Under the pieces are notes generated by a model, which was given only the letters and a program-made list of their open reading frames with translations, was not told the origin of the DNA and made no database searches. Below are positions 26,801-48,210 of a stretch of 64,000 nucleotides of DNA, piece after piece. How positions within the stretch are numbered: the stretch's first letter is position 1; each line of letters opens with the position of its first letter. Location of the stretch: assembly GCA_001247695.2 (NCBI GenBank), contig LGRX02003595.1, forward strand, positions 1-64,000. Reading direction: 5' to 3'. The position numbers and the translations under genes were made by a program. The stretch is from Cymbomonas tetramitiformis (taxonomy: Eukaryota > Chlorophyta > Pyramimonadophyceae > Pyramimonadales > Pyramimonadaceae).

Positions 26801-27506
26801 GGGGCTTCCTTTACACTATACAAAATTCACCACAATTTGGTTTAAGATACAAAGAAACTTCCGAAATTTTAGCACCTGCTGCAGCGCGGGCAAATCGAGT
26901 GTAGGCGAGTGAGCCCCGTGCTGACTCTCATCAAACACGTGCGATATTTTCTTTCGCATACGTGTTATGTACCTCGCGGCGGGGGTGCTATGTGCCCCCT
27001 CGCGCATGTGATGGCGGTATTCATGCATGGGACACCCCCGCCCCCCCACACGCGATGGCGATATCCACGGTACTGATGCCATCAATTGATGGCACCGTTA
27101 CCCTGGCAGTGTCCCACAGATGCAAGATATCCAGGTCTTAGGGGGAGGGAGACTAAACCCCCCACACGCAGATACCGGAGTCTAGTAGGGGAGGGGGATG
27201 TGAACCCCCCACAACCAAAAGTAGGAGTCTCAAAGGGGTTTATGCATATTGACCCACTCACCACCTAATATCAAAGTCCATCCAGGGGTGACACATTCGA
27301 CGTCCTATGCTTCCCCCCCCGGCCCCTAGGAGCAAAATGGGGGCACCCTAAGCATTTCTATCAGCATTGTTTTGGTGATATGGCAGCTAGCAAAACCCCA
27401 GCCAACGGCTTTAAAGCTCAAATATGGAGCATTCATTCACCCGTGGAATTCATATGTATTTGTAATAACCAAAGAAATTCAAGTATGAATGTTGTTCAAG
27501 CCCCCA

Positions 27507-27541
<35 letters not shown>

Positions 27542-30970: not shown

Positions 30971-31442
30971 TGTCAGGTAGGTTTGTTTGCAAACTGTAAA
31001 CTGAATTATGAGGCCGGACACGTTTTCGTCTACACCTTTATCGATTGTCACAGCACAACCCCGTGATCCGAAATGTACAAATCTGAATCTTCCATCACAT
31101 ATCGATTCTTCATCAATTCCAATCTCGATCTTGAATCGCATTCGTTCTGTCGAAACCGGACACGATGCCAGACTGTCATACTGTCACGATATCATAATGT
31201 CATACGATCATCGTGTCATTGATACTGGCATACTTGTCATTTTCACGGGACTTCTACATCTCTCTGTCAAATCTTGACACGATGCTAGGCTGTCGTACTG
31301 TAACGATGCCATACTGGCATCGTGGCATACTGACATACACGCATGTCATTATTATGCATCTCTCACGTCTTAAATCACACTATCTGCCGTACGCATGACC
31401 CATCACGTTCGAGATGTCATAGCCGTCGTGCCCAACGGCACA
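30971..31442 (-). mobile_element. Probable diverged LTR of a Ty3-type element (remnant)
   Basis: The right edge reads cggcaca followed by a polypurine tract (AAGGGGGGAGT on the - strand), the same LTR/PPT junction as in the intact element at 34911-34932. The left edge, starting tgtcagg, would give a 472-bp LTR, close to the 463 bp of the intact element. Internal identity is low and no partner LTR is present, so it is an old relative, truncated at its 5' side. The left boundary is a guess. Confidence 0.45.
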
Positions 31443-31980
31443 ACTCCCCCCTTAGGAGTGGATTTGCTCCGTGACCACTCCTAACATCAAAGTCAGGGCT
31501 GGCTATCTTCCATAATAGGCTCCTAATCACATCGTTCCGCAGGATGTGTTTTTAACTTTAGTCCCATGCGCTCACCGAAAGTCCCAGAAAGGCTTCCCCC
31601 CGGTCACGCTGCCAACGCCAACCTCGGGTTCCGCGCGATCCTTGACAGACAGTGTCTAAGGCGGGTCTCCAGTCTTCAGTCGCTGCTTGCCATTGAACTC
31701 CAGGTGATGAAATAACTGCCGAAGGAGCAGGCGATGCTCCGACATCATACGCCATGAGCGAGCCCATGATCGACCTACCTGCGGACGGCATCTCCCACCA
31801 TGCGTGGACCCCCGGTGCCATCAACCTAGCGCTCGCCACATCGGTGATGAGGACGACGCTGACTGGCCGGCTTTCTGCGATGGGCCGATTTATATTCCGC
31901 GTGCGGCTTCCAGCGGCAGTGCGGGTGTCAACCACGATCGTGCACCCTGCACCGCCGTCTGGTGGTGCACCATGAGCTCC
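31443..31980 (-). pseudogene. Possible 3' end of a decayed retroelement ORF
   Basis: This follows the LTR/PPT junction on the side where the pol 3' end should be. Both elements have a TAA immediately before the polypurine tract. A 125-codon open stretch lies at 31558-31935 on the - strand, but it shows no recognisable integrase or methyltransferase motif. Assignment rests on position only. Confidence 0.3.
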
Positions 31981-32495
31981 ACTAATGTTTCCTTAGCTGC
32001 ATTAGCTTTGCATCTTGCTATACGGACCAACGTACATGCGGAGAGCCTCCTCTAGTTGGACCGAGAAAGGTCCCTTTGGGCCCAGTAACATTTTGTATTG
32101 CTAGGGTTTAGTCTTTGTGTGCTTCAAAAGGCTTCTCTGACCCCTCACTTCTTCTTGGTGAGGTGGTGTCATGCAGACAATGCCTTTTGCCCCCCAGGGG
32201 ATCCGGCAGCTCTGTCCTCGTGTCACCCCTCGATCAGAGGTGCCGGTTTTTGTTTCTCTGCTGTCTCAATAAAACACCTAAGTAATTTATTTCATCATCT
32301 GGCTTTTGACTGTGAAATACGTGGCTGCTGCTGGACGGCTTTGTGTTCTCGTGTGAAATATATATTGATCTCCCCGTGAACGAGTAGCAGGAACGAGAAA
32401 ATGCACGTTTTGGGGGAGTCGGGGGTTTCGGATCCCCCAATTTAAGTAGGAAACATTCGAGAATTAATGGGGTACCCCCCTACACCCATATCCCT

Positions 32496-32750
32496 TACCG
32501 GAATATCCTACTTCACTAGATATCAGAGGTCCCGAACTGTGTGTGGATAAACTCTCCGTAATAGATAAACCCTAAGCTAGATATACCCGGAACGGTCTCG
32601 GACGGTCTCGGAGTCTAGCCTACCTGTGACACAGCGTGTGTCACAGCACGCACCTATAAATCAGTCAGCAGTCCAGTGTTGGTCCTAGAGTTCTGTCATA
32701 GGGGCCTGCACCGGGACTCCCGGTCAGGGCTGTATATACAGATTTCAGCA
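32496..32750. repeat. 255-bp dispersed repeat, copy 1
   Basis: It begins taccggaatatcct and ends gatttcagca, and is nearly identical to 57669-57921, 25 kb away. It contains gtgacacagcgtgtgtcaca, a short palindrome, and caccgggactcccgg. Both copies have sharp edges, so it is a mobile or LTR-like repeat, but it lacks clear TG...CA ends and target duplications. Confidence 0.8.
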
Positions 32751-32984
32751 CACCACCCCAGCACTGTGGGCGGTGACTGACTAGGAGAGACAGAAAATGT
32801 AAGATAAGATGCTAGGGCAGGAGCCAGGGTGACAAGCCCTAACTGCTAATCCAACTGTGCTATTCTGACACACAAATTGGAACCCTCTAGCTAGCACGTG
32901 AGCAGAAACATACGGGCAATTAAGGCGCCGCTAAACCACTGAAAAGAATCGTGCCAGCAAGTCAGATTGAAGAATGCAAAGGTG

Positions 32985-33731
32985 TCAAAGTAAATCATAA
33001 ACCAGATTGAAGACCATGTTGAGGTCAAAGCACATCTCAGCATACCACCATGAAAGTGGTGTACTGCCAGAATCAGCACCAGAACCAGAGCTAGCCGACA
33101 GCAGACTCGTCATCGTCAACGTCGGACGGAGGAGGGCTGTAGTCAGGCGAGACGGTGGAGGGCCAGGCAGCTGGGCTATACCAGGCAGATGGTGAGGGCC
33201 GGGATGGAAGAACCAACCCCTAACCCCCTGCTTCCACCATTCCCGATCGTAGCGGTCAGGCGGCACAACAGAGGGACCACAGCCACCGAGAGCTGTAAGC
33301 ACCGCGTCCAGAGTGTCAGGGCTCAGCTCCTCAATGCCTCGGTAGACACACAGGTCCCCCATGCACAGCACAGGCTGCGGTGCAGCCTGAACCGATACCT
33401 GCACAGGCTCGTCGTCATTGGCCGCCGTGAAGGCGGCAGCTCCCACTCCCATGATGGACATCAAGAGGATAAGAGAGACAAAGAAGGGAAATCCCCACGT
33501 ACCCGCGTGTGCGGAGAAGCCCCAAGATGGCGGCTTGCCACAACCGTAGGTGCGGGAAGCACCACCGGACTGAGGCACGTAGGCTGCGGACTCCGACGCA
33601 TGATTAGCCGAGATGACCGGAGTCCGCGGCTTCACCGTGAAAGTGTCGTCGGCGAAGTCCTCGTAGTCATCCGTGTCGTATCCAGTGAGGTCAGACGGCA
33701 GGACGACTGCGGCGTGATTAACTGTCTGCAC
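32985..33731 (-). CDS. Hypothetical protein with one predicted transmembrane helix
   Basis: A 248-codon intronless frame. It has an acidic N-terminal part (DTDDYEDFADD), a hydrophobic segment near residues 85-105 (FPFFVSLILLMSIMGVG), a Cys-containing middle (CMGDLCVYRG) and a Pro/Ser-rich C-terminal part. No family is recognised. A + strand frame covers nearly the same interval (33189-33833), but it is Arg/His-rich and looks like the shadow. Position beside retroelement remnants raises the possibility of an element-borne, envelope-like or accessory protein; this is inference from location only. Confidence 0.45.
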   Translation of the reverse strand: MQTVNHAAVVLPSDLTGYDTDDYEDFADDTFTVKPRTPVISANHASESAAYVPQSGGASRTYGCGKPPSWGFSAHAGTWGFPFFVSLILLMSIMGVGAAAFTAANDDEPVQVSVQAAPQPVLCMGDLCVYRGIEELSPDTLDAVLTALGGCGPSVVPPDRYDREWWKQGVRGWFFHPGPHHLPGIAQLPGPPPSRLTTALLRPTLTMTSLLSASSGSGADSGSTPLSWWYAEMCFDLNMVFNLVYDLL

Positions 33732-33839
33732 GAAGCCTCCGAACTCACCGCAACCATGTCGCCTCCGTGGTGGTCAACCGCGCCGATTGTTTTGGCGAGG
33801 GCTCCACATCGTCCACCTGCGAGACAGGGATAATGTCCA

Positions 33840-34205
33840 CTACCCTTCGGTACATGGGGATGTACCCAAGGGCCTTAGGTACAGAACGATGTACCTAAGC
33901 CGTACATATTACATCAAGGCCCAAATCCGACGTTTTGTGCCCCTTGTAGTGACAATTAACCAATAGGCACCCTCTTCTATCGATATTATGATCCAACATT
34001 CGGATCCGATCCGTACAATATACGCTCTGATGCATTCAAAATCACTCTTTTTGAAGAAAACAAAAAAACCAGGTCAAAATAAATGTTTTCCCGCCATATT
34101 CGGCAAGCTCGGCATTGTTCTCTCTGTGAACGTTCGGCTGGATTCTGGTAGTAGAACTTGATAAAATATAATTCATATGTAGTTAGAGAATCCAAAAAAT
34201 CCGCG
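33840..34205. other. Intergenic stretch
   Basis: AT-rich. It opens with a cluster of gtacc/ggtac motifs (ggtacatggggatgtaccc, ggtacagaacgatgtaccta) that can form short hairpins, then shows nothing recognisable. A - strand open frame of about 100 codons (33986-34291) overlaps the interrupted gene and is not supported. Confidence 0.4.
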
Positions 34206-34454
34206 CTATTGACCTTGCTCGCGGTACGTATCCAACATGGCCGCTCGTCGCGCAACAGGGCAGCTTCTCCAAGGACGCAAGGTGAAGGCACACGCTGCAG
34301 CCTTCAACTCCAAGTGGAGTTCCGCAAGCGAACGGCAACCCAAAAATAAAGAGTGCAGCTTGTCCTTGTCCTCAAGGGTCAACTTACAAGTGGACTGGCA
34401 AAACACTTGACCTTCACCACCCTCCGCATCGAACAACTTCATGAGCTTAGTAAA
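34206..34454 (-). pseudogene. 3' half of a small gene split by the Ty3 element
   Basis: On the - strand this continues, in the same frame, the reading frame that begins at 48408. Removing the element and one GTAAA copy gives one uninterrupted frame of 447 nt (148 residues plus stop). The 3' part contains Cys/Leu/Lys-rich stretches such as KLTLEDKDKLHSLFLGC. A possible 5' splice site (caag|gtcaat) lies just before the stop, so the original gene may have had further exons. No family is recognised. Confidence 0.6.
34450..34454. other. 5-bp target-site duplication (GTAAA), left
   Basis: Identical to 48206-48210 on the other side of the element. Five-bp duplications are normal for Ty3/gypsy integrases. 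Confidence 0.95.
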
Positions 34455-34917
34455 TGTCACGGGCATACAAATGCATATACGAAGTTTCAGAGTAATCGGA
34501 TACGAATCGATATATATCACAACCAGTGATTATGCAATACGGCCCGTGTTACGAAAACATTTTTATTCTGTAACAAAGCTCCCAAAGGAATCGTGTTTCA
34601 TCACTATATAGCACAGGCTGTTCGGCTAGTTTCTCTCGTCACAGGAATCCCTGTTTTTCCCCAACCTGCGCCGCCATAAATGTCATCTCTATTGTCATCT
34701 GTCACGGTATTGTACCAACACCGTTGATTCTGTCATAATCGTTCCTAATAATATTTCTATCGTTCACGATTCTGCCAGAGAGATAACATTTACTGATTTT
34801 GCATTCTTCATCCACGATCTCAGATTCCCTATCAATATTTCTCCCAATATGCCGGTAATCTGAATCGGATCCCCCTTCCGTGGGGGTAATTGGCAGTCTA
34901 TCGTGCCCCCTGGCACA
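34455..34917 (-). repeat. 3' LTR of the Ty3 element
   Basis: 463 bp, from tgtcacggg to tggcaca in + orientation. It differs from the 5' LTR at accagtg versus accggtg and at gtcataatcg versus gtcttaatcg. It lies on the 3' side of the - strand coding region. Confidence 0.95.
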
Positions 34918-34932
34918 ACTCTCCCCCCCTTA
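34918..34932 (-). promoter_or_regulatory. Polypurine tract
   Basis: On the - strand AAGGGGGGGAGAGT abuts the 3' LTR, where plus-strand DNA synthesis is primed. It overlaps the TAA stop of ORF4. Confidence 0.9.
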
Positions 34933-37900
34933 GGGGTGGCTTTCTCCTGATGTCACCCCAGCATCTTCATCACCTGTATTCCTGGGAAATAACCGCTGAA
35001 ATAAGGTTCTCAGTAACTTAGCAGGTATAGGATATACTGCGCGAGAATTCTGCATCCCCTGCTGATCTGGATGAGGCCCTAGTTGAGCAGTAAGGGGGTG
35101 CACTCCAGTTGCCCATTTACATGGACACGGAGTCTGCGAGGTACATTCTCGCAGTGGTACGCTGGGCGGCGCATTAGTCCAGATACAAGTAGGTTTCTTA
35201 TACTTCTCCCCGTACATACAATATGAGCAAAACAAGGGGGTAGGTAATTGATCCACTACAGGTCTGAATCGCAAAGCATTGGGATATCGCCCTTTTGGAT
35301 TTTCCAGAAACCAATAGCGTGGTCTGAGATATTCGATGATGTCAAGGGTGCGTTCTACACAAGCATCTGCAGATATTAAATCTGGTGGTCCTCCAGTAGT
35401 TCGCGCTTGACTATATTGGGTACACGGTGGACTCGCCCATATTGCATCAAAATATCCAGGAGGGTAATAGCTCCAATATTCCCAATCTTCAATTCTGGTA
35501 ACATGCGTAGATCGCCAGAACTTATCAGAATCTAAAGATACTGTCTGTGCCTGAGGAAAGCATTCTGAGAAGGATCTCTGAACTGAGCCAGTGCCACTGA
35601 AGAGTACCAGTATTCTGATAGGTTTTACTGGAGCTGGCGATAACTCAGTCACATACGCCACTTCTCCAGAATCGGTAAAGTGTTGTTCTTCCCATGGAAG
35701 ACACGCACTCGCAGAACTATTAGACATACCCCAGAACTGCGCTGATAATTGCTGCACTAATGTCCCACTGTCCGCTGTCATTATTGACGCAGCATTCTGG
35801 TGCCGTCGATGTTCCCTTCTCCGCGCAGCTGAATCCCTGACCTGCTGTTCCATTGCTAGGCGTCTCTCTTCAAAATCCCGCAACTGTTGTAATGGGGCAC
35901 CGCGCTCTAACTTATCACGCGTTCTCCACTGGTCATGGGCTTTAGAGAACCCGGTCCATCGCACCTTCCATTCCTCTATTTCTTTGCCCCTGCTCACGCG
36001 TACGCGTCGGCTCAAGATTTTCTCTACATGAGCCTCCTTCTGTCCGTCCACCATCACTGCTTCAGGTGTCACTGTCTGCTGTCGCAGAGCGAAAGTGTCC
36101 TCTCCACCTGTGTAGGGTTTCAATCTGTGCTGCGCGAACACGTCATGCACTCTCCAATGTGGGGGCAACTTCAGTCTATACGCCACTGGTGCCCCTCTGT
36201 CTGCCTCAGGCATCTCCGCCTGCAGATCGCTGTAAAAGCGTTCCGTAACTGCAACTGGACCATGCCACCGCTTGCTCAGCTTGCGGCACAAGGCTCTGTC
36301 CATCAACTTCTCTGTAAGATGTTTAGCCTCAATCCAGACCAAGTCACCTACCGCATACTCCCGCTGCGCGTGTCGCTGATCAAAAGCGTCTCGTTGCCTG
36401 CGTTGTGCTAGCTCAAGTTTGCTGCGTGCGTCCCGCAACTGCGACGAAAATCTCGACGCCCATTCATGTGCAGTCCCCACCCCTCCTTTTCGTTGCCCGC
36501 TGTGCAATTGAGCGGCCTCCAAGAAGATGTCAAGCTGCGACATGGGCGACACACCACAACATAATTCAAATGGAGTGAAGCCTGTAACATCATTACGCGA
36601 ATCGTTGATTGCGAACTCCACGTTCGTAGCGTATAAGTCCCAGGACTCTGGATTGTCCTCCACAAACGATCTCAACATGTCCTCCACCACCCTGTTAGTG
36701 TGCTCCGCTTGACCATCAGAGCGAGGATTGTAGGGCGTAGTCATCGCCACTTTCACACCCATCAATCTCATCAACTCCTTCCAGAAGGTATCCTGAAAGC
36801 GTGGATCACGGTCACTGACTATTTTCATCGGAGCTCCATGTTGTCTCCACACCGTGTCAAAGTAGATACGTGCCACTGTAGCAGCAGAGCTGTCCCCAAA
36901 ATTCATAGGAACCACATGTACCATTTTAGACAGTTTGCATGTAAATGCTACAAATGCGTCATTGCCCTGCTCAGTCAAGGGTAGGCCTGTGACGAAATCC
37001 ACTCCCACACCCTGCCATACCCGAGTTGGAATAAAATGCGGGTTCAGCAATCCATCTGGGAAAGATGATCTGGGCTTCACCGCCTGACAAACTGAACAGG
37101 AGGCAACCCATTCTCCCACATCTTGGTGTGCATTCCTCCACCAAAACCTTCGCAGAACACGCTCCAGCGTTTTATCTCGGCCAGTATGGCCAGCTGTCGC
37201 CGACTCATGCGCTTCGCGCATAATAATCTCTCTCAGCGGAGAGTCCTCTCCCAGCACCAACTGAAATCTTCCCGATGCAGTTCTCCACAGTACTTCACCC
37301 ACCAGACAGAACTCTTTGGTGCGGCTGTGAGGAGCACACTTTACCTTAGTGCGTAGCTCATTGAGAGGTCCATCTCTAGTATATTCGGACTTCAAGGCTT
37401 CCAAGAAAGCAGCATCAGACGCTTCTTCCTGAGAGTCACGCAATTTGGCTGCTTTGCCTGCGTGTATTATGGGTACTCGTCCTCTTGGTTGACGTACTCT
37501 TTGTACTCGCTGCTTCGATGGAGGCGCATACACTACCAGCATAGGCTGCTGTAAATCGACTAATTTCCCATTGGAACCTTCCATCAATTGTACTGGTTCA
37601 CCTTGCGCATCATGCGTGGGGATCACCTCCTCCTCAATACGCATTCCTGCTCGCCTGAACAGGGATCTCCACTGCGGCATTCTGGACTGTATATCAGGCA
37701 GTAGAAACACAGCAGAAGTGTTCTCGGGGTCACATCGCCACTCCTGCACGTATTTACGCAGCAAGGCCTCCACTGTCAAGTGTTTGTCTGAGAACGAGGG
37801 TTCGCACCACACATGCATCCCTCTCCACTTTTCCTGTAAGCAGTTGTGCCAGAACCGCTTTACACGCCGATTGTTGCCATGCTCATCGCAACAGGCGTCG

Positions 37901-38901
37901 ACGTCGAAGTTGCCATATTTAGCCTGGATACGGTCAAACACGTCCTGCCGCACACGCATACCGTGCCAGCCAACTGCCTGGAACCGTACAGACTTCTTTG
38001 GCTGCCTCTGTGATGGCAGTGGAGCTTCTGCAGACTGTTTCTGCACTTCTGAGCACTGGTCTTCCTTCACATCCCCTTTCAGGGCAGAAGGCACAGAACG
38101 CCTGTTCTGCGGTTCACCCTGCTTGGTCACTTTGGTGTTCACATCGCCTCGTTCTGAGGCGGCATCCCGCAAAGAAGTTTCTACATCCTCCTTCACTCGC
38201 AACACTTGGGAGCGGGGACTCCTCCTCAATGTGCGTTCCAGTCCACCCGACTTCTGCTGAGTCGTCTGAGTGTCCTCGGTGCGACTGCTCACCTCCGCGA
38301 CTTTATCTGATACCCCCTTCACTTTAGAAGTGATGCGCTTGTCCAGCGTCTTGGATCTCAGATACTTCCCCCGACTTTTAAAGGCCAGGGTAGCCTCCAT
38401 AGCTTTCTCCGCTATCTGTAAAGTGTCCACCGCGTGAAGATAAGCCTGCTGCTCTGCATGCCATGCAGGATAGCTCTTCGAGGGCCCCTCTTCGAAGATG
38501 TGGGAGGTGTCCATCGCAGCGAGCGAAGTCTTGGGTAAATCGGATTTGTCGTCCAATACCCCCGCCTCCTTCAACCCGTCTCGTGGCGACTTGACCACAT
38601 AGTCAGGTCGGCGAGACAAGGCGTCAGGTACCAGCAACAGAGCCCCCTTTACATATTCCATACGGGGAACACCCACCTCCACCAAGTCCATGTACCATCT
38701 CGCCTGTCGCCTAGATAGCTCACGCCCCGGCTCCATTAACCACTCTAATGGGCGGTGATCACCTTGAAGTTTGAACTCTGTAAAAATCAAATAATGCCTC
38801 CACGTCACTGTACAGCAATGATGTAGAGCACCCAGCCAGTTCTCGCTCTCCAGTATGGTAATTCTGCTCTGCCGCTGAAAATTGTCGGCTCTCATATGCA
38901 A
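34930..38901 (-). CDS. pol: Ty3 ORF4: RNase H end, Dam-like domain, integrase, chromodomain-like segment, C5 cytosine methyltransferase
   Basis: About 1323 codons. Residues 20-100 finish RNase H (WRHYL, GDHRPLEWL, DALSRRPDYV). Residues ~315-440 resemble the Dam-like fold of DIRS elements and phages (FDVDACCDEHGN, RFW, W-x-CEPSFSD, FLLPD); the usual NPPY/F catalytic motif reads CEPSF, so activity is doubtful. Residues ~565-800 are integrase: an HHCC zinc finger ending CSVCQ, then catalytic acidic residues in VDFVTGLPL, SDRDPRF and NPRSDGQAEHTNR. Residues ~957-1000 look like a chromodomain (W-KVRWTGF). Residues ~1092-1300 are a C5 cytosine methyltransferase: motif I LFSGTGSVQRSF, motif IV ASPPCTQYS with the catalytic Cys, motif VI WFLENP, then YCMYG-x-x-YKKPT-x-IWTN. 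It has no obvious start of its own and would be expressed by +1 frameshifting from ORF3. The stop overlaps the polypurine tract. Confidence 0.92.
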   Translation of the reverse strand: MHMRADNFQRQSRITILESENWLGALHHCCTVTWRHYLIFTEFKLQGDHRPLEWLMEPGRELSRRQARWYMDLVEVGVPRMEYVKGALLLVPDALSRRPDYVVKSPRDGLKEAGVLDDKSDLPKTSLAAMDTSHIFEEGPSKSYPAWHAEQQAYLHAVDTLQIAEKAMEATLAFKSRGKYLRSKTLDKRITSKVKGVSDKVAEVSSRTEDTQTTQQKSGGLERTLRRSPRSQVLRVKEDVETSLRDAASERGDVNTKVTKQGEPQNRRSVPSALKGDVKEDQCSEVQKQSAEAPLPSQRQPKKSVRFQAVGWHGMRVRQDVFDRIQAKYGNFDVDACCDEHGNNRRVKRFWHNCLQEKWRGMHVWCEPSFSDKHLTVEALLRKYVQEWRCDPENTSAVFLLPDIQSRMPQWRSLFRRAGMRIEEEVIPTHDAQGEPVQLMEGSNGKLVDLQQPMLVVYAPPSKQRVQRVRQPRGRVPIIHAGKAAKLRDSQEEASDAAFLEALKSEYTRDGPLNELRTKVKCAPHSRTKEFCLVGEVLWRTASGRFQLVLGEDSPLREIIMREAHESATAGHTGRDKTLERVLRRFWWRNAHQDVGEWVASCSVCQAVKPRSSFPDGLLNPHFIPTRVWQGVGVDFVTGLPLTEQGNDAFVAFTCKLSKMVHVVPMNFGDSSAATVARIYFDTVWRQHGAPMKIVSDRDPRFQDTFWKELMRLMGVKVAMTTPYNPRSDGQAEHTNRVVEDMLRSFVEDNPESWDLYATNVEFAINDSRNDVTGFTPFELCCGVSPMSQLDIFLEAAQLHSGQRKGGVGTAHEWASRFSSQLRDARSKLELAQRRQRDAFDQRHAQREYAVGDLVWIEAKHLTEKLMDRALCRKLSKRWHGPVAVTERFYSDLQAEMPEADRGAPVAYRLKLPPHWRVHDVFAQHRLKPYTGGEDTFALRQQTVTPEAVMVDGQKEAHVEKILSRRVRVSRGKEIEEWKVRWTGFSKAHDQWRTRDKLERGAPLQQLRDFEERRLAMEQQVRDSAARRREHRRHQNAASIMTADSGTLVQQLSAQFWGMSNSSASACLPWEEQHFTDSGEVAYVTELSPAPVKPIRILVLFSGTGSVQRSFSECFPQAQTVSLDSDKFWRSTHVTRIEDWEYWSYYPPGYFDAIWASPPCTQYSQARTTGGPPDLISADACVERTLDIIEYLRPRYWFLENPKGRYPNALRFRPVVDQLPTPLFCSYCMYGEKYKKPTCIWTNAPPSVPLRECTSQTPCPCKWATGVHPLTAQLGPHPDQQGMQNSRAVYPIPAKLLRTLFQRLFPRNTGDEDAGVTSGESHP

Positions 38902-41900
38902 TCACCTTCAAGCCATTCCCACAGTCTTGCATAAGGACCCCGCCTAGCGCCACTCCGCTAGCGTCCGTCTGCACTAGAAAAGGAGCAGATCCATCAGCTG
39001 CCGCCTTCATATTTGGCAATGCCAGAATGGGCGCCTTAACCAGAGCAGCTTTCAACTCCTCAAAGGCCCACTGCTGCTCCGGTCCCCATGTCCAGGGTAC
39101 ATCCGTCTTGGTCAGCTTGGTCAAGGGCTGCGCTATCTCAGAGAAGCAGTGGATGAAACGCCTATAATATCCCGCCAGTCCCAAGAACTGCCGCACGTGG
39201 GTAACATTCTCCAGCGCAGGCCAATCGCGCACTGCCGCCACCTTATCATGTTGAGGTTGGCACCCTTCCTTCGACAGAGTGTGACCAAGGAACTTGATAG
39301 AAGACTTCAACATTTGTGCCTTAGACTTCTTCAAGTATACACCCTTCTCGCGGCATGTTAACAGAAATGTGCGTACCGCAGAGTAGTGCTCCTCCACGGT
39401 CCCACTGGTGTAAACACACACATCGTCAATGAAAATTCTGACGAAGGGTAAATGTCCCAACGCTCGCTGCATTCGCCGTTGATATTGTGACGGGGAGTTC
39501 TGCAAGCCTTGAGGCATTACCAACCACTCGTAGGCTCCCATCTGAGTAGTAAACGCTGTCTTCTCCACGTCCTCAGGTGCCATAGGTACTTGCCAGAACC
39601 CGTCTACAGCGTCGAAGGTGGAGAAATGGGTAGCTCCCTGCATCTCGTCAAACATCATTTGAATATCAGGTAGAGGATACCGGTCTCGAATTGTTTGTGA
39701 ATTCAGTTGCCTGAAATCACACACCAGCCTAAGGATATGGGGCTGTCCTGGCTTGGGTACCATTAAACAAGGAGCCGCATACGGACTCGAAGAGGGTCGT
39801 ATATATCCTTTCTCCACCAGTTGTTCAATGCGTTCTCGTAGTTGACGCAACTCCTCCACAGACATCTTGTAAGGTCTTCTACAGGGAGGTCCTCCTTCTC
39901 TGTCCGGCTTGAGGTTAATCTTCGCCTGATCTTCGTCAGCGTGTCGAAGGTTTTCCAATCCAGAAGGTAAAGAGTCCCGCAGCTCCTGCTCAAACTCGTC
40001 GAAGAGGTCCTTGAACTTCTTCTTCCACGCTGCAGTGGCATCCGCATCTTGCGAGTCCTGCTGCGACACAGGGTTCTTCGGTTCATCGTTGGCGCCAGTA
40101 GGAATCTTCGAGATGTCCTCCTTCTCAACGGCCAAATCCTCAGCTTCCACCTTGAAAGCCGACTCTCCGGTTGTGGTCCTCGCAGCCATCATCAACCATG
40201 CGGGCATTGAAGAAGCGTCTCCCGCGAGTCTCCGCGTTTCCGCGGCCACTAGATGTTTCTTCAACTGCACCGAAGTGAGGAACACCTCGTCAATCAGCCC
40301 GGCACAATCCACATCTCCTCGTCGCTTCCCTTTCCTTCCTCCAGGGGCAGCACTGATTCCAGGATTACACCCGGAAATGGTAACCCTCTCTGCACCGCCT
40401 CCTTTCCTTTTGTTAGAAAAGGACACTGCACCATTGCCATCATAGTCCAGCGTAATGGGAGATAAGCTGCGTAGCCATTTCCCTCCCAACACCATGTCCA
40501 CGGCGATGCCCAAGGGTAGCACCCGCATAGCCATAGATTGCTCAGTATAGGTCCCTGTCGTGGTCTTGGCAGTGAACTTAGAATAAGCCACATGACCAGT
40601 CGTCTTGACTGAGCCATCCGCCAGGGTCACACGCATAGCGGTTCCACTTCGCGTAGTCAACTTGCAGCGTCTGGCGCAGTCTTCAGATACGAATATATCT
40701 GAAGCTCCAGAATCCACCAGCACCTTGACACGATGTCCCTTCAAGTACGCGAAGAATACCAGAAGTAGGGGTCCATCTGGATCTTGTGCAGAAGCCAAGT
40801 ATTCAGTGGGTCCCCATCGTACACTACCATCGCTGCACACCCGCTCACATTTAAGTGGGTCATCATCATCTTCCTCATTATCATCCAATGGGTGACTTCC
40901 TCCAAGGTCATCATCATCCAGAGGGTGACTATCCAACACGGACAGTTGCGCGTCCATGGTGGTTGAAGGTGATACATGAGTAGTAGTTGCAGCATCGTTG
41001 TGGTCCGCAACTGGTTTCGAGTCTTGATCTCCCGCTGCCATCATTTGCTGCGTGAAGTTTAGGTCGTTATCGGGCGTGGACATCTGTTCATCCGCTGATG
41101 CATGCGTCGGAGATTCTGAAACCTCCGGTATCGACAATGGAGGAGTTGTAGCACCTACCGGCCCTCCAGAATCATCGCCTTCAGATGGAGTATCACCTGA
41201 ATTACTCGGTACCTCAGGCATATTCTCCGCAAACATCTCCTGATAAACTGTGGCTGGGTCTGCTTCTTGCTGAATCTCTCCAAATCGGTGTACTCGATAT
41301 AAACTACACCACGTATCAGGAATTCCAGGGATGTCCCCCCCAGATCCTGGTATCCTGCCCGTATCAGATATCGCCGCTGATGGGCGTACCACAGGAGATT
41401 GCAAGGATTCTAGCACCAGTAGAGTTCCAGAATCGTCACGCACAGAGATGGGCTTATATCTTTTCCTCACACGCTTCCACCCCTCCAACTCCCACTGTCT
41501 GCTGCCTCTTGGAGTGGAAGTCTCCTGAGACATAGCGTGTAGTTGCTCTTCCATAGACAACTCTTCCCAAGCATACCTTAAAAGGGTAGCTAGAGGCATC
41601 GCCAAATCCAGAGCTGTCAAACTCCGGCTGCGATGTAACTCACCAATATCCACCACACCTCGCTGAAGTAGATTATCAACATGTGATGTGATCATTGATT
41701 TCCGGGTACATACCGGTACCACACCCCCTGCAGCGTGATGTGCGAGAGGTAGGTCTGCCATTGTCCGCATCATATCCAGATTGCTCCTTCTGTTTAGGAA
41801 CCTGATTGGAATATTGCGTCGCCGCCGTCCATTAATAAGGTCCTTGTCCAGGTCCTTCTGTATATCAGCAGCAGATACTTTCTGTCGCAGCTGTTTCCGG

Positions 41901-42184
41901 ATCCGCTGCATCAGAGCCTCCATCGAGGTCGCCCTCCCCTTACTTCGCCACTGCCACGCGGGTAAACGCTGTGACTGTTCCGTCAAGAGGGGCGCGTACA
42001 CATTGTTGTACATCCATGTGCCCAACACTGCAAAGTGCCGAGGCATAGGATCACCTTCTTCAGGTGAAACTCTCAGCCTACTGCTGAAAGTCAGTGGCGA
42101 GCTTGTCGCCACCGAGAAGGGTGATTCATCACCCTTCCTCCTCGGAGATAGTGATCTCCTCGGAGTTGCGCAACTCCGCACCAA
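38759..42184 (-). CDS. pol: Ty3 ORF3: aspartic protease, reverse transcriptase, start of RNase H
   Basis: About 1141 codons. The retropepsin motif VDSGASDIF is at about residue 487. The reverse transcriptase spans about residues 760-1000, with CDFRQLNSQT, DAVDGFWQVP, LVMPQGLQNSPSQYQR and the catalytic FIDD (a YxDD variant) at about residue 916. The thumb and connection include FLGLAGYYRRFI. RNase H begins at QTDASGVALGG and reaches AYESRQFSAAEQNY before the frame is lost. The N-terminal 400 residues are acidic, with DDDD-rich stretches. ORF3 overlaps the end of ORF2 by 56 nt in the +1 frame, compatible with programmed frameshifting. The loss of frame inside RNase H is not where frameshift sites normally lie and may be a one-base insertion. 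Confidence 0.93.
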   Translation of the reverse strand: MVRSCATPRRSLSPRRKGDESPFSVATSSPLTFSSRLRVSPEEGDPMPRHFAVLGTWMYNNVYAPLLTEQSQRLPAWQWRSKGRATSMEALMQRIRKQLRQKVSAADIQKDLDKDLINGRRRRNIPIRFLNRRSNLDMMRTMADLPLAHHAAGGVVPVCTRKSMITSHVDNLLQRGVVDIGELHRSRSLTALDLAMPLATLLRYAWEELSMEEQLHAMSQETSTPRGSRQWELEGWKRVRKRYKPISVRDDSGTLLVLESLQSPVVRPSAAISDTGRIPGSGGDIPGIPDTWCSLYRVHRFGEIQQEADPATVYQEMFAENMPEVPSNSGDTPSEGDDSGGPVGATTPPLSIPEVSESPTHASADEQMSTPDNDLNFTQQMMAAGDQDSKPVADHNDAATTTHVSPSTTMDAQLSVLDSHPLDDDDLGGSHPLDDNEEDDDDPLKCERVCSDGSVRWGPTEYLASAQDPDGPLLLVFFAYLKGHRVKVLVDSGASDIFVSEDCARRCKLTTRSGTAMRVTLADGSVKTTGHVAYSKFTAKTTTGTYTEQSMAMRVLPLGIAVDMVLGGKWLRSLSPITLDYDGNGAVSFSNKRKGGGAERVTISGCNPGISAAPGGRKGKRRGDVDCAGLIDEVFLTSVQLKKHLVAAETRRLAGDASSMPAWLMMAARTTTGESAFKVEAEDLAVEKEDISKIPTGANDEPKNPVSQQDSQDADATAAWKKKFKDLFDEFEQELRDSLPSGLENLRHADEDQAKINLKPDREGGPPCRRPYKMSVEELRQLRERIEQLVEKGYIRPSSSPYAAPCLMVPKPGQPHILRLVCDFRQLNSQTIRDRYPLPDIQMMFDEMQGATHFSTFDAVDGFWQVPMAPEDVEKTAFTTQMGAYEWLVMPQGLQNSPSQYQRRMQRALGHLPFVRIFIDDVCVYTSGTVEEHYSAVRTFLLTCREKGVYLKKSKAQMLKSSIKFLGHTLSKEGCQPQHDKVAAVRDWPALENVTHVRQFLGLAGYYRRFIHCFSEIAQPLTKLTKTDVPWTWGPEQQWAFEELKAALVKAPILALPNMKAAADGSAPFLVQTDASGVALGGVLMQDCGNGLKVIAYESRQFSAAEQNYHTGERELAGCSTSLLYSDVEALFDFYRVQTSR

Positions 42185-45100
42185 TAACCGCCAGCTGCTC
42201 GGAGCACCCTACCAAGGCCGCCAAGGATTCCACGGCCTCTCCATCCATCTCTGCCAAGCTCTCGATCTCCGCCTTTAGCTCGACAGGTGCCCACTCAGTG
42301 TCCTCATTGCGCGACAACGCCCAGAACAACGCCGCCACTTGTTCTCGGTTTCGAGCTAAACGAGGGGGTGCGTTTGCCTTCCACGCAGCCAACTTCACCG
42401 CGTCCGTACAGTCCCGCACCAGATGGTCGGGACTTTGACACGCGTAGCAGTTTCTCACTCGCTTCGGATAGGTCGGGGTTGTTGTCGAGGCCGGGGGCGA
42501 TGGTCGAGCAGAGGTCGGCGCTGCAGCGAGCTCAGCGTGCGTGGCTGCCATCAATCGATGGGGCTCCCGAGAGCGGCTTCGGAAGAAGGACCTGGAGGGT
42601 GACGGAGATGTAGAAGGGGAATTCCAGGGGCGGCCAGTTCGTTCTCCACTTCTGTTGGATTGAGCCTGAGCCGCCTTCTTCTCCTTGCGCGACTCGATGT
42701 TTTTGGCAATCTCCAGCACTTTTAAGATTGCCTGAGTAACATCACGGGGCGTCGCCTCCTCCTTCATCTTCTCCTCCCACACATGCGGCTCGGAGAGGTC
42801 CAGTTTGATCCTTCGCAGCTCCTCACCCACCTTGTCAGTGTAGGTGAGTCCCCTCCAGAATATATATGAGAACTCAGACTCAGAGACTTGCACGCATCCT
42901 TGAACGACCTTTGCCATAAAGTTCACAGTCTTATGGCGATTGGTCAATCGCGAATGGTAGGCGTCAGCGGTCTCGTCTTTCTTCTGACCGATCTGGAGGT
43001 CATCTCGAAGGGTTTGAAGTTCCGCCACTGGAAGAGTACTCACCGCCAGATCCCCCAGAAAGACGTCTGGGTCGCTGTATCGGAGACGCCAGGCCTCCGA
43101 TGTCCCAGAACCGCCGCCAGCCCTCTCCATATACTCTTTCTGCTCCGTGCCCAATGCAGTTTCTGTCACGGTCCATAGCACCTCGGAGACCGAAGATTGA
43201 CGGCCCTCTCCCGCATAACAGCTCGCCTGAGAGAACGCCCTCAGTACCACCTTCTCGTTGAGGAGCTTGTGCAGATTCCTCGCAAAGGTTTCCAACTCAG
43301 TGATGGCCTTCTCTTTACTCAGCTTTTCCGCGGAAGGGAAGCGGGTCAGCTTTTCAACGAGGCGGTCAATGTTGCTCTGCACCTTGCTCTCCAGATAAGC
43401 CGCCTTGTCGCCAGGGTCGTGTTCTCCTTGTCCAGGAGGGCGTGGGTTAAAGACCTGAGCGTGTGGAGAAAGGCCTGGACGAGCGTGAGGATGTGGCGCA
43501 ACCGGTCCTGCGAAATAGGGACTCCGGTGTTGCGGCGCATGCGGTCCTGAATGAAGGGAATGTCCATGACCTCCTGCAGAAGATCCCGCTGCAGCCGCGC
43601 TGATCTGCGGAATCCCAGAATGAACAGCCACACCGGGATTAAGTCCGACGCAGGGCGTCCCAGGTTGCACAGCAATGCCCGAAGGATGTCCGACAGGAGG
43701 CACCCCAGATTGAACAGCGAGACCGGGTGGAACTCCAATGTTTGATAGTCCAGGAGGGGCAGCAAGGGCAGGAGGGACTCCAGCAGGTTGTACTCCAGAT
43801 GGTACAGATGAGTCTCCTGCGTGTGGTATCATTGCCGATAAGGTTGTCGAAGGGTTCGCAGTAGCCACCGGAATACGCGTTACCATCGGGTCATTAAGTA
43901 TAGGCGTATTGGTCAGAGCCACTGATAATGATGGCGCCCTGACCATTGATGAGGATGGCGCAGCCGAAGAGGATGGAGGCGTCGCAGGAGCTTCCAAGGC
44001 CGGAAGGTTCCTCTCTCTCCGGCACTCGTCTACGTACCATTGACTTCGCTGCACCTCGAACCAGGCTGCCAGACAATCTCGATCCAGCATGGAGATCTGC
44101 TCTTCAAGAGGCCAGTCTGGGATTTCCATCCAGCTTGGTGACACCACCCCCCTTCCTCCAGGACTGCGGTGATACTCGTGTAACACCGTGTCCACCGCAT
44201 CCTTGTTCACCATCATGACATAGGTGGGGACAGCGGGGGATAGAAGTAAGGCGGGGGAACCAGTTACCAACCCCCCAGCGGAGATGTACTCCGTGAGGGG
44301 CATACCGATCAACGTCAGGGCCTTGTAGAAGAGGTTGACGCCGAAGGGTCCCGTGGATGCCAATCCAGTAGCCGTGGGCATGTCAAACTGGAATTCTGAA
44401 TACCCAGGCGGCGTAGGCGTCCACAGGCTCAACCCCTCCGCAGTGACTAGCATCGCCCTTCCCCGGTGCGATCCACTGTAACCGCCAGGAGGATAGTGTG
44501 GGGGTCCAGAAGGAGGTCGACGAGGAGGTTCAGATTGATCTTCATCATCTTCTCCTTCTTCTGCTCCACCGTCTGGGGGAACGCCACTGGGACCTCCGCC
44601 CTCCGCTGATCTCCTAGGTGGTGAGTGTGCACTTGTCACTCCCATCCCGCCAGTTGACTTACGTGGCGCCCCATCGTACGCCTTCTTGCGATCCACTGCC
44701 TTCCACTTCTCCTTCGAGATACGCCGCCATTGCTCCTCCTCGGTCCCAATGCTGTCATTCGCCACCGCTGGAGAGGAATCACTTCCATCAATGACGATGG
44801 TGTCGAGGGAAGACCGCCGCATCCTGGCCAACTGTCGACATGCTACACCTGATTGTGAGTCAGAATGTACAGGGTCAATACTCTCACGCAATTTTCGAAG
44901 CTCCTCCACCGACATCTGGTAAGGTCTTCTACTAGGAGGAGGATCTGCATGGTTGTCCATCTCGAACGAGACCTTGGCCACACGTCCTTCCGCCCGCTGC
45001 GTCCCCGATTTAGGGTTAGTCGAGTCACACACCTGATTCGAGGCTCCCACCATCTCAGTTACCACAGCCGCGTGGTGCGACTCACTCAGGAAACCTAGCT

Positions 45101-45833
45101 TGGTCGCCAACTCCATCGAGAGCCCCTGTGGCTTGCTCATGTCATCCTTCATCGGGGGAAACTCCACAGTTAGAAAGCCCAGCTTGATCGCCTCCTCCAT
45201 CGTGAGCCCCTCAGAGGACTTGCGCCTGGCCTCCTCAACTCGGGCGATCTGCGACAAGCTATCCTCAGGTGAGGGTGGTGGTTGCGATGTCCGCGTCGCT
45301 CCTGGCGTCTGACCTAGAGATACTTCGGCAGAAGGTTCTCCATCTTCAGCGTTTCCAGGCTGTGGCTGCTGCGTCTTAGCAACCACCGCGGGTATGGATA
45401 AGGATTGCGAGCTCTGCGTCGCTCCTGGCGTCTGACCTAGAGATACTTCAGCAGAAGATTCTCCACCAGCGTTTTCAGAGTGTAGCTGCTGCAACTTAGC
45501 AACCACTGCGTCGCTGATGGTCTGGGTAAGGTCCGCCACCCCCTGTGACCCAGCCACACTGTGATCACTGCCCGAGCCCGAACCTGCGCGTTCCGCCAGC
45601 CTGCGCTTCCTCGCTTTGGCGTCCCTCCTTGCTCTGGATCTCTCCGACATTTCAGAATTCGATGACGACGGTGAATTCGAGTCATGTCGATAAGGAAGAT
45701 CGTGGCGGTTCCAGCTGTAGGGTCCCAATGCAGCCCTCGAACGTCGGCGTCTGAGTGGAGGATGTCCATCCTCACGCGGCAGTGCGTACGATTCATTGCT
45801 GTCGTTGTCCGGGTACTGCGTCGCGTAGAACAC
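42129..45833 (-). CDS. gag: Ty3 ORF2: Gag with CCHC zinc knuckle
   Basis: About 1234 codons from the first sense codon after the UGA region. The first AUG in frame is the Met of MSERSRARR near residue 62. It contains a low-complexity N-terminal half with duplicated SAEVSLGQTPGAT units, a Pro/Gly/Val-rich central part, a helical capsid-like region in the last third, and the nucleocapsid knuckle CYACQSPDHLVRDC at about residue 1127. It would package the RNA genome. It is in the same frame as ORF1 and ends in overlap with ORF3. The capsid assignment rests on position before the knuckle. Confidence 0.85.
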   Translation of the reverse strand: MFYATQYPDNDSNESYALPREDGHPPLRRRRSRAALGPYSWNRHDLPYRHDSNSPSSSNSEMSERSRARRDAKARKRRLAERAGSGSGSDHSVAGSQGVADLTQTISDAVVAKLQQLHSENAGGESSAEVSLGQTPGATQSSQSLSIPAVVAKTQQPQPGNAEDGEPSAEVSLGQTPGATRTSQPPPSPEDSLSQIARVEEARRKSSEGLTMEEAIKLGFLTVEFPPMKDDMSKPQGLSMELATKLGFLSESHHAAVVTEMVGASNQVCDSTNPKSGTQRAEGRVAKVSFEMDNHADPPPSRRPYQMSVEELRKLRESIDPVHSDSQSGVACRQLARMRRSSLDTIVIDGSDSSPAVANDSIGTEEEQWRRISKEKWKAVDRKKAYDGAPRKSTGGMGVTSAHSPPRRSAEGGGPSGVPPDGGAEEGEDDEDQSEPPRRPPSGPPHYPPGGYSGSHRGRAMLVTAEGLSLWTPTPPGYSEFQFDMPTATGLASTGPFGVNLFYKALTLIGMPLTEYISAGGLVTGSPALLLSPAVPTYVMMVNKDAVDTVLHEYHRSPGGRGVVSPSWMEIPDWPLEEQISMLDRDCLAAWFEVQRSQWYVDECRRERNLPALEAPATPPSSSAAPSSSMVRAPSLSVALTNTPILNDPMVTRIPVATANPSTTLSAMIPHAGDSSVPSGVQPAGVPPALAAPPGLSNIGVPPGLAVQSGVPPVGHPSGIAVQPGTPCVGLNPGVAVHSGIPQISAAAAGSSAGGHGHSLHSGPHAPQHRSPYFAGPVAPHPHARPGLSPHAQVFNPRPPGQGEHDPGDKAAYLESKVQSNIDRLVEKLTRFPSAEKLSKEKAITELETFARNLHKLLNEKVVLRAFSQASCYAGEGRQSSVSEVLWTVTETALGTEQKEYMERAGGGSGTSEAWRLRYSDPDVFLGDLAVSTLPVAELQTLRDDLQIGQKKDETADAYHSRLTNRHKTVNFMAKVVQGCVQVSESEFSYIFWRGLTYTDKVGEELRRIKLDLSEPHVWEEKMKEEATPRDVTQAILKVLEIAKNIESRKEKKAAQAQSNRSGERTGRPWNSPSTSPSPSRSFFRSRSREPHRLMAATHAELAAAPTSARPSPPASTTTPTYPKRVRNCYACQSPDHLVRDCTDAVKLAAWKANAPPRLARNREQVAALFWALSRNEDTEWAPVELKAEIESLAEMDGEAVESLAALVGCSEQLAVIGAELRNSEEITISEEEG

Positions 45834-45845
45834 CTCGGTGCGCCC

Positions 45846-47093
45846 TCACTGTCCAACTTCCCCATCAGACTCCACATCGGGCGGTGACATCGGTACACCA
45901 GAACGGACCTCGCTGATCTCGGACGCCTCCGAAGCTGATACCATAAAGACGCCCGAGGTGGCGTTGCCCAGCTCCGACGCACGCACTGCTGACGCATCCT
46001 TCATGTCCTCCTCCGCTGCAGCTGATCCACCATCTGCTCCCGGCATCCCGTCAGCACGCACACTATCTGTAGCGTTTCCGTCATCAGTTGTACGCGTAGA
46101 TAATGTGTGCGCACGCACCTCGCCCAGCCCCGGCATTCCGTCCACACGCATACTATCTGTAGCGTTTCCGCCATCAGTTGTACGCGCAGATAATGTGTGC
46201 GCACGCACCTCGCCCAGCCCCGGCATTCCGTCCACACGCATACTATCTGTAGCGTTTCCGCCATCAGTTGTACGCGCAGATAATGTGTGCGCATGCACCT
46301 CGCCCAGCCGCAACGACGGTGAGTGTTCCCACTCCACACGCATAGGCAGCGGGTTCCCATAAGGAGGTCGGCCCTGTGTGTACCAGCCTTCACCCTGATA
46401 GGGTGTTGGGAATTGAACATTCCTGAAAGGGTAATGTCCAGTCCAGGTGTGTAATGGTAATGGCGCCGCTGCATCGGTGGGTGCAGCCGATGGTGTCATA
46501 TACTGCACCGGCTGATCCGCTGTCCACGGTGGTGGTATTGGCCCTCCTGGATATAAACTGCCGGGTGCAGCAGCTGGGAGGAAGTTAGCTGCTGCCATTG
46601 GTGATGCCCTATACATAGGGACTGCGAAGGCAGCAGGATCAGAGAACTGCGCACCATATTGCCCCGTTGTAGGCTGCCGAACATACCGTTCGGCAGTAGC
46701 AGCTCCCATGCCTGCGCCCGAAACTGCTGCTCCAGGATACCCGGACGATGGTGCAACGTGCCCTGCTTCAGAATGCGCCCAAAAGGGCGCAGCAGCAGCA
46801 GGATCAACAGCAGGTTGAGAATATGGTGCCACTGGCTGTGCTCCCGTCGGTGTGCCAAGGGAAGCTGCCGGCAGGTGGTGAGGATAATGGCTTACCGGAG
46901 GTAACCCAATATATACTCCTGACGAACCGACGGCTGAGGTGTGCTGTCCGTGTTGCATATAGTGTGCTCCAGAGGGCGCACCAGAACCGAGATATGGTAT
47001 CTCGGCATTAGCTTGATAAGCAGGATTGGTCTGTGGTGTGCCCCTGAATATACCACCCGACGTCTTATATGTGTACACGTCTGTGCCACTCAT
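45846..47093 (-). CDS. gag: Ty3 ORF1: N-terminal Gag-like protein
   Basis: 415 residues from ATG 47093 to the UGA at 45846-45848. Rich in Pro, Ala, Gly, Tyr and Gln in the first two thirds, then three tandem 30-residue repeats (REVRAHTLSARTTDGGNA type, 46080-46300) and an acidic end. No catalytic domain. ORF2 continues in the same frame directly after the UGA (CAG UGA GGG), so a readthrough Gag of about 1650 residues is possible. Alternatively, ORF1 is a separate protein or the UGA is a mutation. Confidence 0.75.
   Translation of the reverse strand: MSGTDVYTYKTSGGIFRGTPQTNPAYQANAEIPYLGSGAPSGAHYMQHGQHTSAVGSSGVYIGLPPVSHYPHHLPAASLGTPTGAQPVAPYSQPAVDPAAAAPFWAHSEAGHVAPSSGYPGAAVSGAGMGAATAERYVRQPTTGQYGAQFSDPAAFAVPMYRASPMAAANFLPAAAPGSLYPGGPIPPPWTADQPVQYMTPSAAPTDAAAPLPLHTWTGHYPFRNVQFPTPYQGEGWYTQGRPPYGNPLPMRVEWEHSPSLRLGEVHAHTLSARTTDGGNATDSMRVDGMPGLGEVRAHTLSARTTDGGNATDSMRVDGMPGLGEVRAHTLSTRTTDDGNATDSVRADGMPGADGGSAAAEEDMKDASAVRASELGNATSGVFMVSASEASEISEVRSGVPMSPPDVESDGEVGQ
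46080..46300 (-). repeat. 90-bp in-frame tandem repeats within Ty3 ORF1
   Basis: Two and a half to three units, each with ctatctgtagcgtttccg, cagataatgtgtgcgca and cctcgcccagcc (+ strand). The period is a multiple of three and the frame is kept throughout. Confidence 0.9.
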
Positions 47094-47727
47094 AGCCCGA
47101 GTCCAGATATATATATACGACGTCAACTACACAGAACGGTCCACCCAGTAGGTTGTCGTTACGTTGAAAACAGTCCCAACCCGTGCAGGATGGGTTTGTG
47201 TGCGCCACACACGAAGCCGTTTTTCGTTTCCGACCACTAAGAATACTATACTAGAATGATATTCTGTGTCCAGAAAAGCCGTTTACGTTTGCTAGACGTC
47301 ACCGTACGAATACCGTGTCCTGAGTATTAAGAGCTGAAGGAGACGACATACTGCATACTACCGTGAGTTTCCGTGCATTCCAGATAATTTCCGTCAATAT
47401 ACATATTGTCCAGGTATAAGTAAACGTCGTTGCAGGGTTGTATTGCCGATCTGAGCATATTTTTCAAAAACCGATGAACGACATGTTTGACCGTCCACAG
47501 TGTGAAAATAAGCGCCGAACCTGTCCTGAACGATATATGATCTCTAGAGGCTCGTAGTCGTCAGAAATACTTTTCCATGGATAAGTTTGACATATACAAA
47601 CGGAAAATAATGACTAAGAGCTCATCTCCCCCCCAGAACATACTGTGCGCATGGAAGTCGCTTACGCTGAAGAAAGCCGAGTGCTGTTATCCCGCGCGAA
47701 TAGCATAATTGAAGGCAGCACTCGCCA
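47094..47727 (-). other. Ty3 5' untranslated leader
   Basis: A roughly 630-nt AT-rich stretch between the primer site and ORF1, without a convincing ORF. In related elements this part carries packaging and dimerisation signals; none can be pinpointed here. Confidence 0.6.
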
Positions 47728-47739
47728 CATCTGATACCA
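47728..47739 (-). promoter_or_regulatory. Primer-binding site, initiator-Met tRNA type
   Basis: On the - strand, three bases inside the 5' LTR, the sequence TGGTATCAGATG matches the complement of the 3' end of eukaryotic initiator methionine tRNA (TGGTATCAGA). This fixes the - orientation of the element. Confidence 0.9.
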
Positions 47740-47742
47740 ATT

Positions 47743-48205
47743 TGTCACGGGCATACAAATGCATATACGAAGTTTCAGAGTAATCGGATACGAATCGATA
47801 TATATCACAACCGGTGATTATGCAATACGGCCCGTGTTACGAAAACATTTTTATTCTGTAACAAAGCTCCCAAAGGAATCGTGTTTCATCACTATATAGC
47901 ACAGGCTGTTCGGCTAGTTTCTCTCGTCACAGGAATCCCTGTTTTTCCCCAACCTGCGCCGCCATAAATGTCATCTCTATTGTCATCTGTCACGGTATTG
48001 TACCAACACCGTTGATTCTGTCTTAATCGTTCCTAATAATATTTCTATCGTTCACGATTCTGCCAGAGAGATAACATTTACTGATTTTGCATTCTTCATC
48101 CACGATCTCAGATTCCCTATCAATATTTCTCCCAATATGCCGGTAATCTGAATCGGATCCCCCTTCCGTGGGGGTAATTGGCAGTCTATCGTGCCCCCTG
48201 GCACA
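47743..48205 (-). repeat. 5' LTR of the Ty3 element
   Basis: 463 bp, the same length as the 3' LTR and nearly identical to it. It should contain the promoter, but a TATA box could not be chosen with confidence in the AT-rich sequence. Confidence 0.95.
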
Positions 48206-48210
48206 GTAAA
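48206..48210. other. 5-bp target-site duplication (GTAAA), right
   Basis: Matches 34450-34454. Confidence 0.95.

Follow-up and report, generated by a model that had tools for sequence, protein, structure and literature searches.

A chromodomain-bearing Ty3/Gypsy retrotransposon of Cymbomonas tetramitiformis whose pol ends in a putative virus-type cytosine methyltransferase

The element and its two methyltransferase domains

The 64,000-nucleotide stretch analyzed here (positions 1 to 64,000 of contig LGRX02003595.1, assembly GCA_001247695.2; hereafter the window) comes from the green alga Cymbomonas tetramitiformis and contains, on its reverse strand, a Ty3/Gypsy long terminal repeat (LTR) retrotransposon whose pol region ends in a C5-cytosine methyltransferase (C5) domain. 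An earlier sequence-only reading had proposed that this domain is fused in frame to the integrase, and the domain order of open reading frame (ORF) 4, together with the LTRs and the target-site duplication that enclose the fusion, bears this out (Table 1). Membership in the Ty3/Gypsy group is indicated by the LTRs, the target-site duplication, the primer-binding site and the polypurine tract, all of which are present, and by the order protease, reverse transcriptase, RNase H and rve-type integrase; the chromodomain C-terminal to the integrase is a chromovirus trait. The LTR pair was detected by a direct-repeat search of the whole window, and the same search restricted to positions 26000-42000 found no LTRs. 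The primer-binding site, TGGTATCAGA, presumably resembles the initiator-methionine tRNA site of plant elements. Pfam scans of the four element ORFs returned no recombinase family, and the element departs from the tyrosine-recombinase DIRS group in having an rve-type integrase and direct LTRs. An NCBIfam scan returned only IS481-transposase and clan-AA-protease matches, far under their cut-offs.

The sequence motifs previously recognized in the C5 domain, namely motif I (which binds S-adenosylmethionine in this family), motifs IV and VI and the YCMYG block, are present and conserved among the rows of the C5 trees. For these trees and for the count of catalytic residues, rows with fewer than 150 profile positions were dropped, including 14 integrase-bearing rows labelled C5part (cut gene models), and viral loci scoring below 85 bits were also left out of the trees; in the aligned near-complete domains, the catalytic residues are retained. 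The assignment to the C5 methylase family held at the level of the family, as 76 of 82 aligned members match PF00145 at E ≤ 0.01, and of the predicted fold, which is that of a C5-methyltransferase with DNMT3A as its nearest structure. It did not hold for the window domain taken alone, which scores 17.5 bits against PF00145, under the gathering score of 22, a cut-off that is a detection threshold and not a biological feature. We infer that C5 is catalytically active, methylates cytosine in DNA and is kin to the short phage and giant-virus enzymes.

This short phage/giant-virus type had gone unmentioned in the sequence-only reading, as had a Dam-type N6-adenine methyltransferase domain and a frame change within RNase H. 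The Dam-type domain scores 33.8 bits against PF05869, above the cut-off of 28.1, and its NPPY/F motif is kept in 27 of the 39 Dam rows and absent from the other 12, the window copy included. In four relatives (P0184, from the green alga Tetradesmus obliquus, P0187, P0188 and P0191) a Dam-like domain lies ahead of the reverse transcriptase; its motif is degenerate (NAPF or DPPD) in P0184, P0187 and P0191, and P0188 was flagged as lacking NPPY/F/W. As for RNase H, positions 3-57 of profile PF17917 fall in ORF3 and positions 60-103 in ORF4, unlike relatives such as P0002, in which reverse transcriptase through C5 form a single ORF. The window copy has either a frame change that splits RNase H or a sequencing error that mimics one, and for this reason it is probably not autonomous; the C5 reading frame itself is open.

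The two LTRs are identical at 461 of 463 positions, so that, judging from sequence divergence, the element is a young, recent insertion, in agreement with the recent activity suggested earlier. One of the two differences is an A versus a G at a CCAG/CCGG site, which fits decay of a methylated CpG and is anecdotal.

Table 1. Features of the retrotransposon in the window, listed in element orientation
Feature	Positions	Strand	Remarks
Target-site duplication, 5' side	48206..48210	.	5 bp, TTTAC in element orientation, read directly
5' LTR	47743..48205	-	463 bp, TG...CA; 461/463 identity with 3' LTR
Primer-binding site TGGTATCAGA	47730..47739	-	3 nt past the 5' LTR, on the internal side
Upstream ORF	45846..47126	-	426 aa; no Pfam match; frame shared with gag-like ORF
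Gag-like ORF	42129..45833	-	1234 aa; weak CCHC zinc knuckle at 42405-42452 (PF00098, E 5.5e-4, 20.4 bits, cut-off 20.8)
ORF3	38759..42184	-	1141 aa; aspartic protease (PF13650, 7e-11), reverse transcriptase (PF00078, 3e-28; PF17919, 5e-22), first part of RNase H
ORF3/ORF4 overlap	38759..38901	-	Different frames, within RNase H
ORF4	34930..38901	-	1323 aa; RNase H end, Dam-like, integrase, SH3, chromodomain, C5-methyltransferase
Dam-like N6-adenine methyltransferase domain	37465..38025	-	Pfam stretch 37696-37947; between RNase H and integrase
Dam NPPY/F motif site	37792..37803	-	Reads EPSF in the window copy
Integrase zinc-binding domain (H2C2)	37069..37242	-	PF17921, 1e-19
Integrase core (rve)	36724..37002	-	PF00665, 1.1e-6, 29.3 bits, below cut-off 32.6
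Tf2-1-like SH3 domain	36112..36192	-	PF24626, 1.8e-8
Chromodomain	35866..36030	-	PF00385, 26.1 bits, cut-off 25.1
Putative C5-cytosine methyltransferase domain, virus/phage type	34972..35622	-	ORF4 residues 1094-1310
C5 motif I, LFSGTGS	35587..35607	-	First Gly in 158/158 tree rows with a letter there
C5 motif IV, ASPPC with catalytic Cys	35425..35439	-	Cys in 165/165 tree rows, 34/34 retro rows
C5 motif VI, ENP with catalytic Glu	35299..35307	-	Glu in 165/165 tree rows, 34/34 retro rows
YCMYG..KPT..W block	35182..35226	-	Typical of the short C5 family; Tyr, Cys, Lys in 165/165 tree rows
Polypurine tract	34918..34931	-	Adjoins 3' LTR
3' LTR	34455..34917	-	463 bp; direct repeat of 5' LTR
Target-site duplication, 3' side	34450..34454	.	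5 bp, TTTAC, read directly

Relatives of the fusion and origin of the C5 domain

A search with the C5 region under ORF4-length limits retrieved 34 proteins. PF05869 is present in 15 of them and Pfam domains of retroelement or chromo type in 32; the 13 that carry an organism name are all from Cymbomonas tetramitiformis. Across 120 tabulated protein architectures (ORF4, P0001-P0034 and P0155-P0239), the order reverse transcriptase-Dam-integrase-chromodomain-C5 recurs from close kin down to approximately 45% integrase identity (P0024, P0180). Moreover, P0036, a protein of the JGI set with a chromodomain and a C5 domain, is 90% identical in C5. A scan of prokaryote genomes gave seven loci, with a single close one (L034, NHEN01000032.1), a retroelement fragment with RNase H, Dam, integrase, chromodomain and C5 in a GTDB metagenome-assembled genome labelled Verrucomicrobiaceae bacterium TMED86, which is probably a misbinned eukaryotic contig. 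Sequence and predicted fold together establish the anatomy of the element, the fusion and its presence in relatives.

Regarding the source of the C5 domain, the closest viral structure to its predicted fold is a 'putative cytosine DNA methyltransferase' of Tetraselmis virus 1 (E 4.1e-23, TM 0.81/0.88, 35% identity), a giant virus that infects a green alga. All 82 C5 family members match phrog_757, and near-full-length relatives occur in 6 of 15 phage records, with 93-96% coverage and 26-32% identity; one viral contig with a short C5 gene (L001) also codes for a phage terminase. In Bacillus phage BM15 (L041), three consecutive genes are annotated as cytosine-C5 methylases, and the middle one is of the short type. 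In a profile search, 8000 candidates were scored and 6465 proteins found; the best 120 of these are, besides evident kin of the element, mostly short environmental proteins with approximately 36-50% identity. Among the rows labelled 'standalone', 47 of 84 are convincing standalone genes (Met start, at most 225 aa, motif I within 12 residues), and three of the standalone enzymes used as queries found 0, 1 and 0 relatives in viral contigs.

The 165-row tree mixes retro, 'longN' and 'standalone' rows, and many of the last two are apparently pieces of fusions that lie on short contigs. In a 63-row tree, with rows chosen from the 165 and including 23 retro rows, the window domain falls in a 25-row group (97/96), in which 18 rows are retro and 7 standalone, while the N-terminal retro type (P0032-P0034) groups with phages (99/94), apart from the window group. 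The starred branches of this tree force at least three changes of the retro label; nevertheless, a single origin of all 23 retro rows was not rejected by the approximately unbiased (AU) test (p 0.17), and recurrent capture of C5 by retroelements was dropped as a demonstrated result on that account. More than one entry of virus-type C5 domains into Gypsy pols may still have taken place, because they are also found ahead of the protease and not behind the chromodomain (P0033, residues 58-211; P0034, residues 4-156), and C-terminally in proteins in which neither Dam nor chromodomain was detected (P0222, P0224, P0225 and P0227).

Two further architectures were observed in this set. P0025 has a full C5 domain at its N terminus (residues 5-216) and a decayed C5-like remnant at its C terminus (2020-2088), for which a relocation of the domain, or an ORF spanning a repeat, is possible. 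In addition, precomputed annotations place SET domains (PF00856) and PHD fingers (PF00628) in Gypsy pols (P0189, P0197, P0203; P0019, P0023, P0235, P0236), that is, further chromatin writers and readers on retroelements.

Proposed function and its alternatives

We favor, at roughly an even chance, the explanation that this chromodomain-bearing Ty3/Gypsy element, with a pol ending in integrase, chromodomain and C5 and a Dam-type domain inside, marks its own DNA or its insertion site. As the C5 domain lies C-terminal to the integrase and no pol domain follows, it would stay on the integrase-chromodomain product, which would enter the nucleus with the cDNA. There, C5 would methylate the cDNA and/or the insertion-site chromatin read by the chromodomain, with the latter supplying the targeting. 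In this way the element would label itself with 5-methylcytosine as 'own DNA' or as heterochromatin, and this mark would shield the copy from nucleases and damp its later expression. The Dam-type domain probably once added N6-methyladenine in the same complex; its catalytic motif is altered in the window copy, and therefore C5 activity alone would remain. More tentatively, and with more doubt than belief, a widespread marine algal group of chromodomain Gypsy elements may constitute a two-base, self-delivered epigenetic system, in which a chromodomain reader linked to the integrase, a C5 writer of a kind that algal giant viruses also have and a Dam-type N6-methyladenine writer are present in the same polyprotein and both bases are marked at integration.

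Several observations weigh against self-marking. Neither a target-recognition domain nor motif VIII was identified in the C5 domain, and C5 is less conserved than the integrase in the closer relatives (55-68% versus 76-83% in P0001-P0008), as well as in P0163 (50% versus 68%). The proposal that C5 stays with the integrase is drawn solely from domain order. Furthermore, in 11 of 13 gene models from Cymbomonas, coverage of the C5 query reaches 61% at most, which may reflect gene-model error or decay; P0155, whose integrase is the closest among the models (90% identity over 195 columns), departs from the C5 sequence just before motif IV. The CpG observed/expected ratio is 0.82 in the element versus 0.92 and 0.96 in the adjoining flanks, but the stretch 1-8000 is equally low (0.80) and a single copy was measured, so that CpG depletion was not counted as a sign of self-methylation. 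Lastly, a Gypsy-borne DNA methyltransferase (DNMT) is reported to have given no methylation in the yeast assay in which SymbioDIRS enzymes methylated CG, an outcome that the authors call inconclusive (PMC5890265).

One alternative is that C5 is a passenger, folded but catalytically idle, which persists through a part in structure or DNA binding or is in the process of being lost. The neighboring Dam-type domain, devoid of NPPY/F in 12 of 39 rows, indicates that methyltransferase folds can persist without their motif, and the partial coverage of C5 in the gene models points the same way. However, unlike the Dam motif, the C5 catalytic residues are found in 34 of 34 near-complete retro rows (rows with truncated C5 having been excluded beforehand), and we consider an idle passenger unlikely. 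An RNA target, be it the element RNA or the tRNA primer, is likewise unlikely: the nearest fold is DNMT3A, the profile matches to DNMT1 chains are almost as good (from E 8e-4 upward, with M.HaeIII matching weakly, at E 0.09) and DNA methylase is the annotation given to several phage relatives. A defense-type role, in which C5 would act mainly against competitors or invaders such as giant viruses or other elements, is in our view rather improbable, even though a role of this sort has been put forward as a general hypothesis for retrotransposon-borne methylases (PMC6338049), endogenous viral elements are reported to be numerous in Cymbomonas (PMC10675990) and the closest viral model belongs to a virus that infects the green alga Tetraselmis. 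The fused relatives hold C5 in pol with the integrase and usually a chromodomain, an arrangement pointing to the element's own DNA or the insertion site and not to a diffusible defense.

Descent of the domain from a host Dnmt3, as in KnitGypsy-Dnmt3 and SymbioDIRS-Dnmt3, is also unlikely, with only a slim chance in our estimation. Although DNMT3 provides the nearest fold, the profile search matched 35 PDB sequences up to E 10 without a DNMT3 among their names (9baq and 9bap carry an unspecific name), whereas phrog_757 is matched throughout the family and full-length relatives occur in phages, in one giant virus and as short environmental genes standing on their own. Finally, an assembly chimera or a private rearrangement (the latter named as a possible refutation in the sequence-only reading) is next to impossible, since the target-site duplication and the LTRs enclose the fusion and relatives in other assemblies, including P0036, have the domain in the same place.

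Known elements and the remainder of the window

Retrotransposons are normally the targets of cytosine methylation. Plant chromomethylases combine a chromodomain and a C5 domain in one protein, a reader-writer pairing in host enzymes with BAH domains and without integrase, and their likeness to the window element is one of design that does not imply descent. Retroelement-borne methyltransferases have themselves been described: DNMTs in Gypsy, DIRS and long interspersed nuclear element (LINE) retroelements were published in 2018 (PMC5890265), and the self-marking mechanism proposed above is similar to the suggestion by de Mendoza et al. that cDNA is methylated (PMC5890265). KnitGypsy-Dnmt3 from Klebsormidium nitens is, as the window element, a Gypsy with a C5 DNMT in its pol ORF and conserved catalytic residues, and purifying selection was reported for it; however, it is Dnmt3-related and has a DIRS-like repeat layout, whereas the window element has direct LTRs, a short C5 of phage/giant-virus type, an intervening chromodomain and a Dam-type domain (PMC5890265). 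SymbioDIRS-Dnmt3 and SymbioLINE-Dnmt also carry cytosine methyltransferases, but on DIRS (tyrosine recombinase) or LINE backbones, with the SymbioLINE DNMTs set apart by their description as an orphan type; the SymbioDIRS enzymes methylate CG in yeast (de Mendoza et al. 2018, PMC5890265). Similarly, DIRS elements with a Dam-type N6-adenine methyltransferase are known (PMC6338049, PMC5890265), but they use a tyrosine recombinase, while in the window element Dam follows RNase H and precedes an rve-type integrase, with a C5 domain present as well.

In Cymbomonas itself, Burns et al. (2015, PMC5741210) reported three scaffolds at more than 10,000x coverage, for which they noted resemblance to a chromodomain, to RNase H and to a cytosine DNA methyltransferase. 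These probably belong to the same element group as the window element; the accessible part of that report gives no element structure, Dam-type domain or origin, and leaves unstated whether one scaffold has all three domains. Chlamyvir-like chromovirus pol genes, of Ty3/Gypsy type and with a chromodomain, were described from the same alga in a report whose text contains neither 'methyltransferase' nor 'methylase' (0 occurrences, PMC10675990). Therefore, the novelty claimed in the sequence-only reading for this lineage and architecture stands in part: Gypsy and DIRS DNMTs (PMC5890265) and the similarity of the Cymbomonas scaffolds (PMC5741210) had been published, and what is new here is the combination of both methyltransferase types plus a virus-type C5 enzyme in a Gypsy pol. 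In the open-licence PMC literature, which excludes subscription papers and preprints and is weak evidence of absence, we recognized no report of Dam and C5 in one Gypsy pol, nor of a virus-type C5 in Gypsy.

Overall, a virus-type C5 joined to an integrase and a chromatin reader makes it possible to ask, in a natural setting, whether elements benefit from methylating themselves, with kin in an alga where such sequences are reported at very high copy number (PMC5741210). In addition, the shared enzyme family links algal giant viruses and retroelements, and the partly worn Dam domain provides a built-in comparison between an often-lost writer and one whose catalytic residues are kept.

As for the rest of the window, Rfam and tRNA scans were empty, and the sole recognizable host gene among ten ORFs scanned is a piece of an ABC transporter ATPase at 11833-12681 (PF00005, 1e-25). 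Three 90-bp repeats at 46039-46309, within the upstream ORF of the element, encode a repeated 30-residue unit. An 88-bp tandem array of approximately 16 copies (48452-49840) begins some 250 bp away from the 5' LTR, and a long, repetitive, coiled-coil-like ORF occupies a GC-rich stretch at 112-2250.
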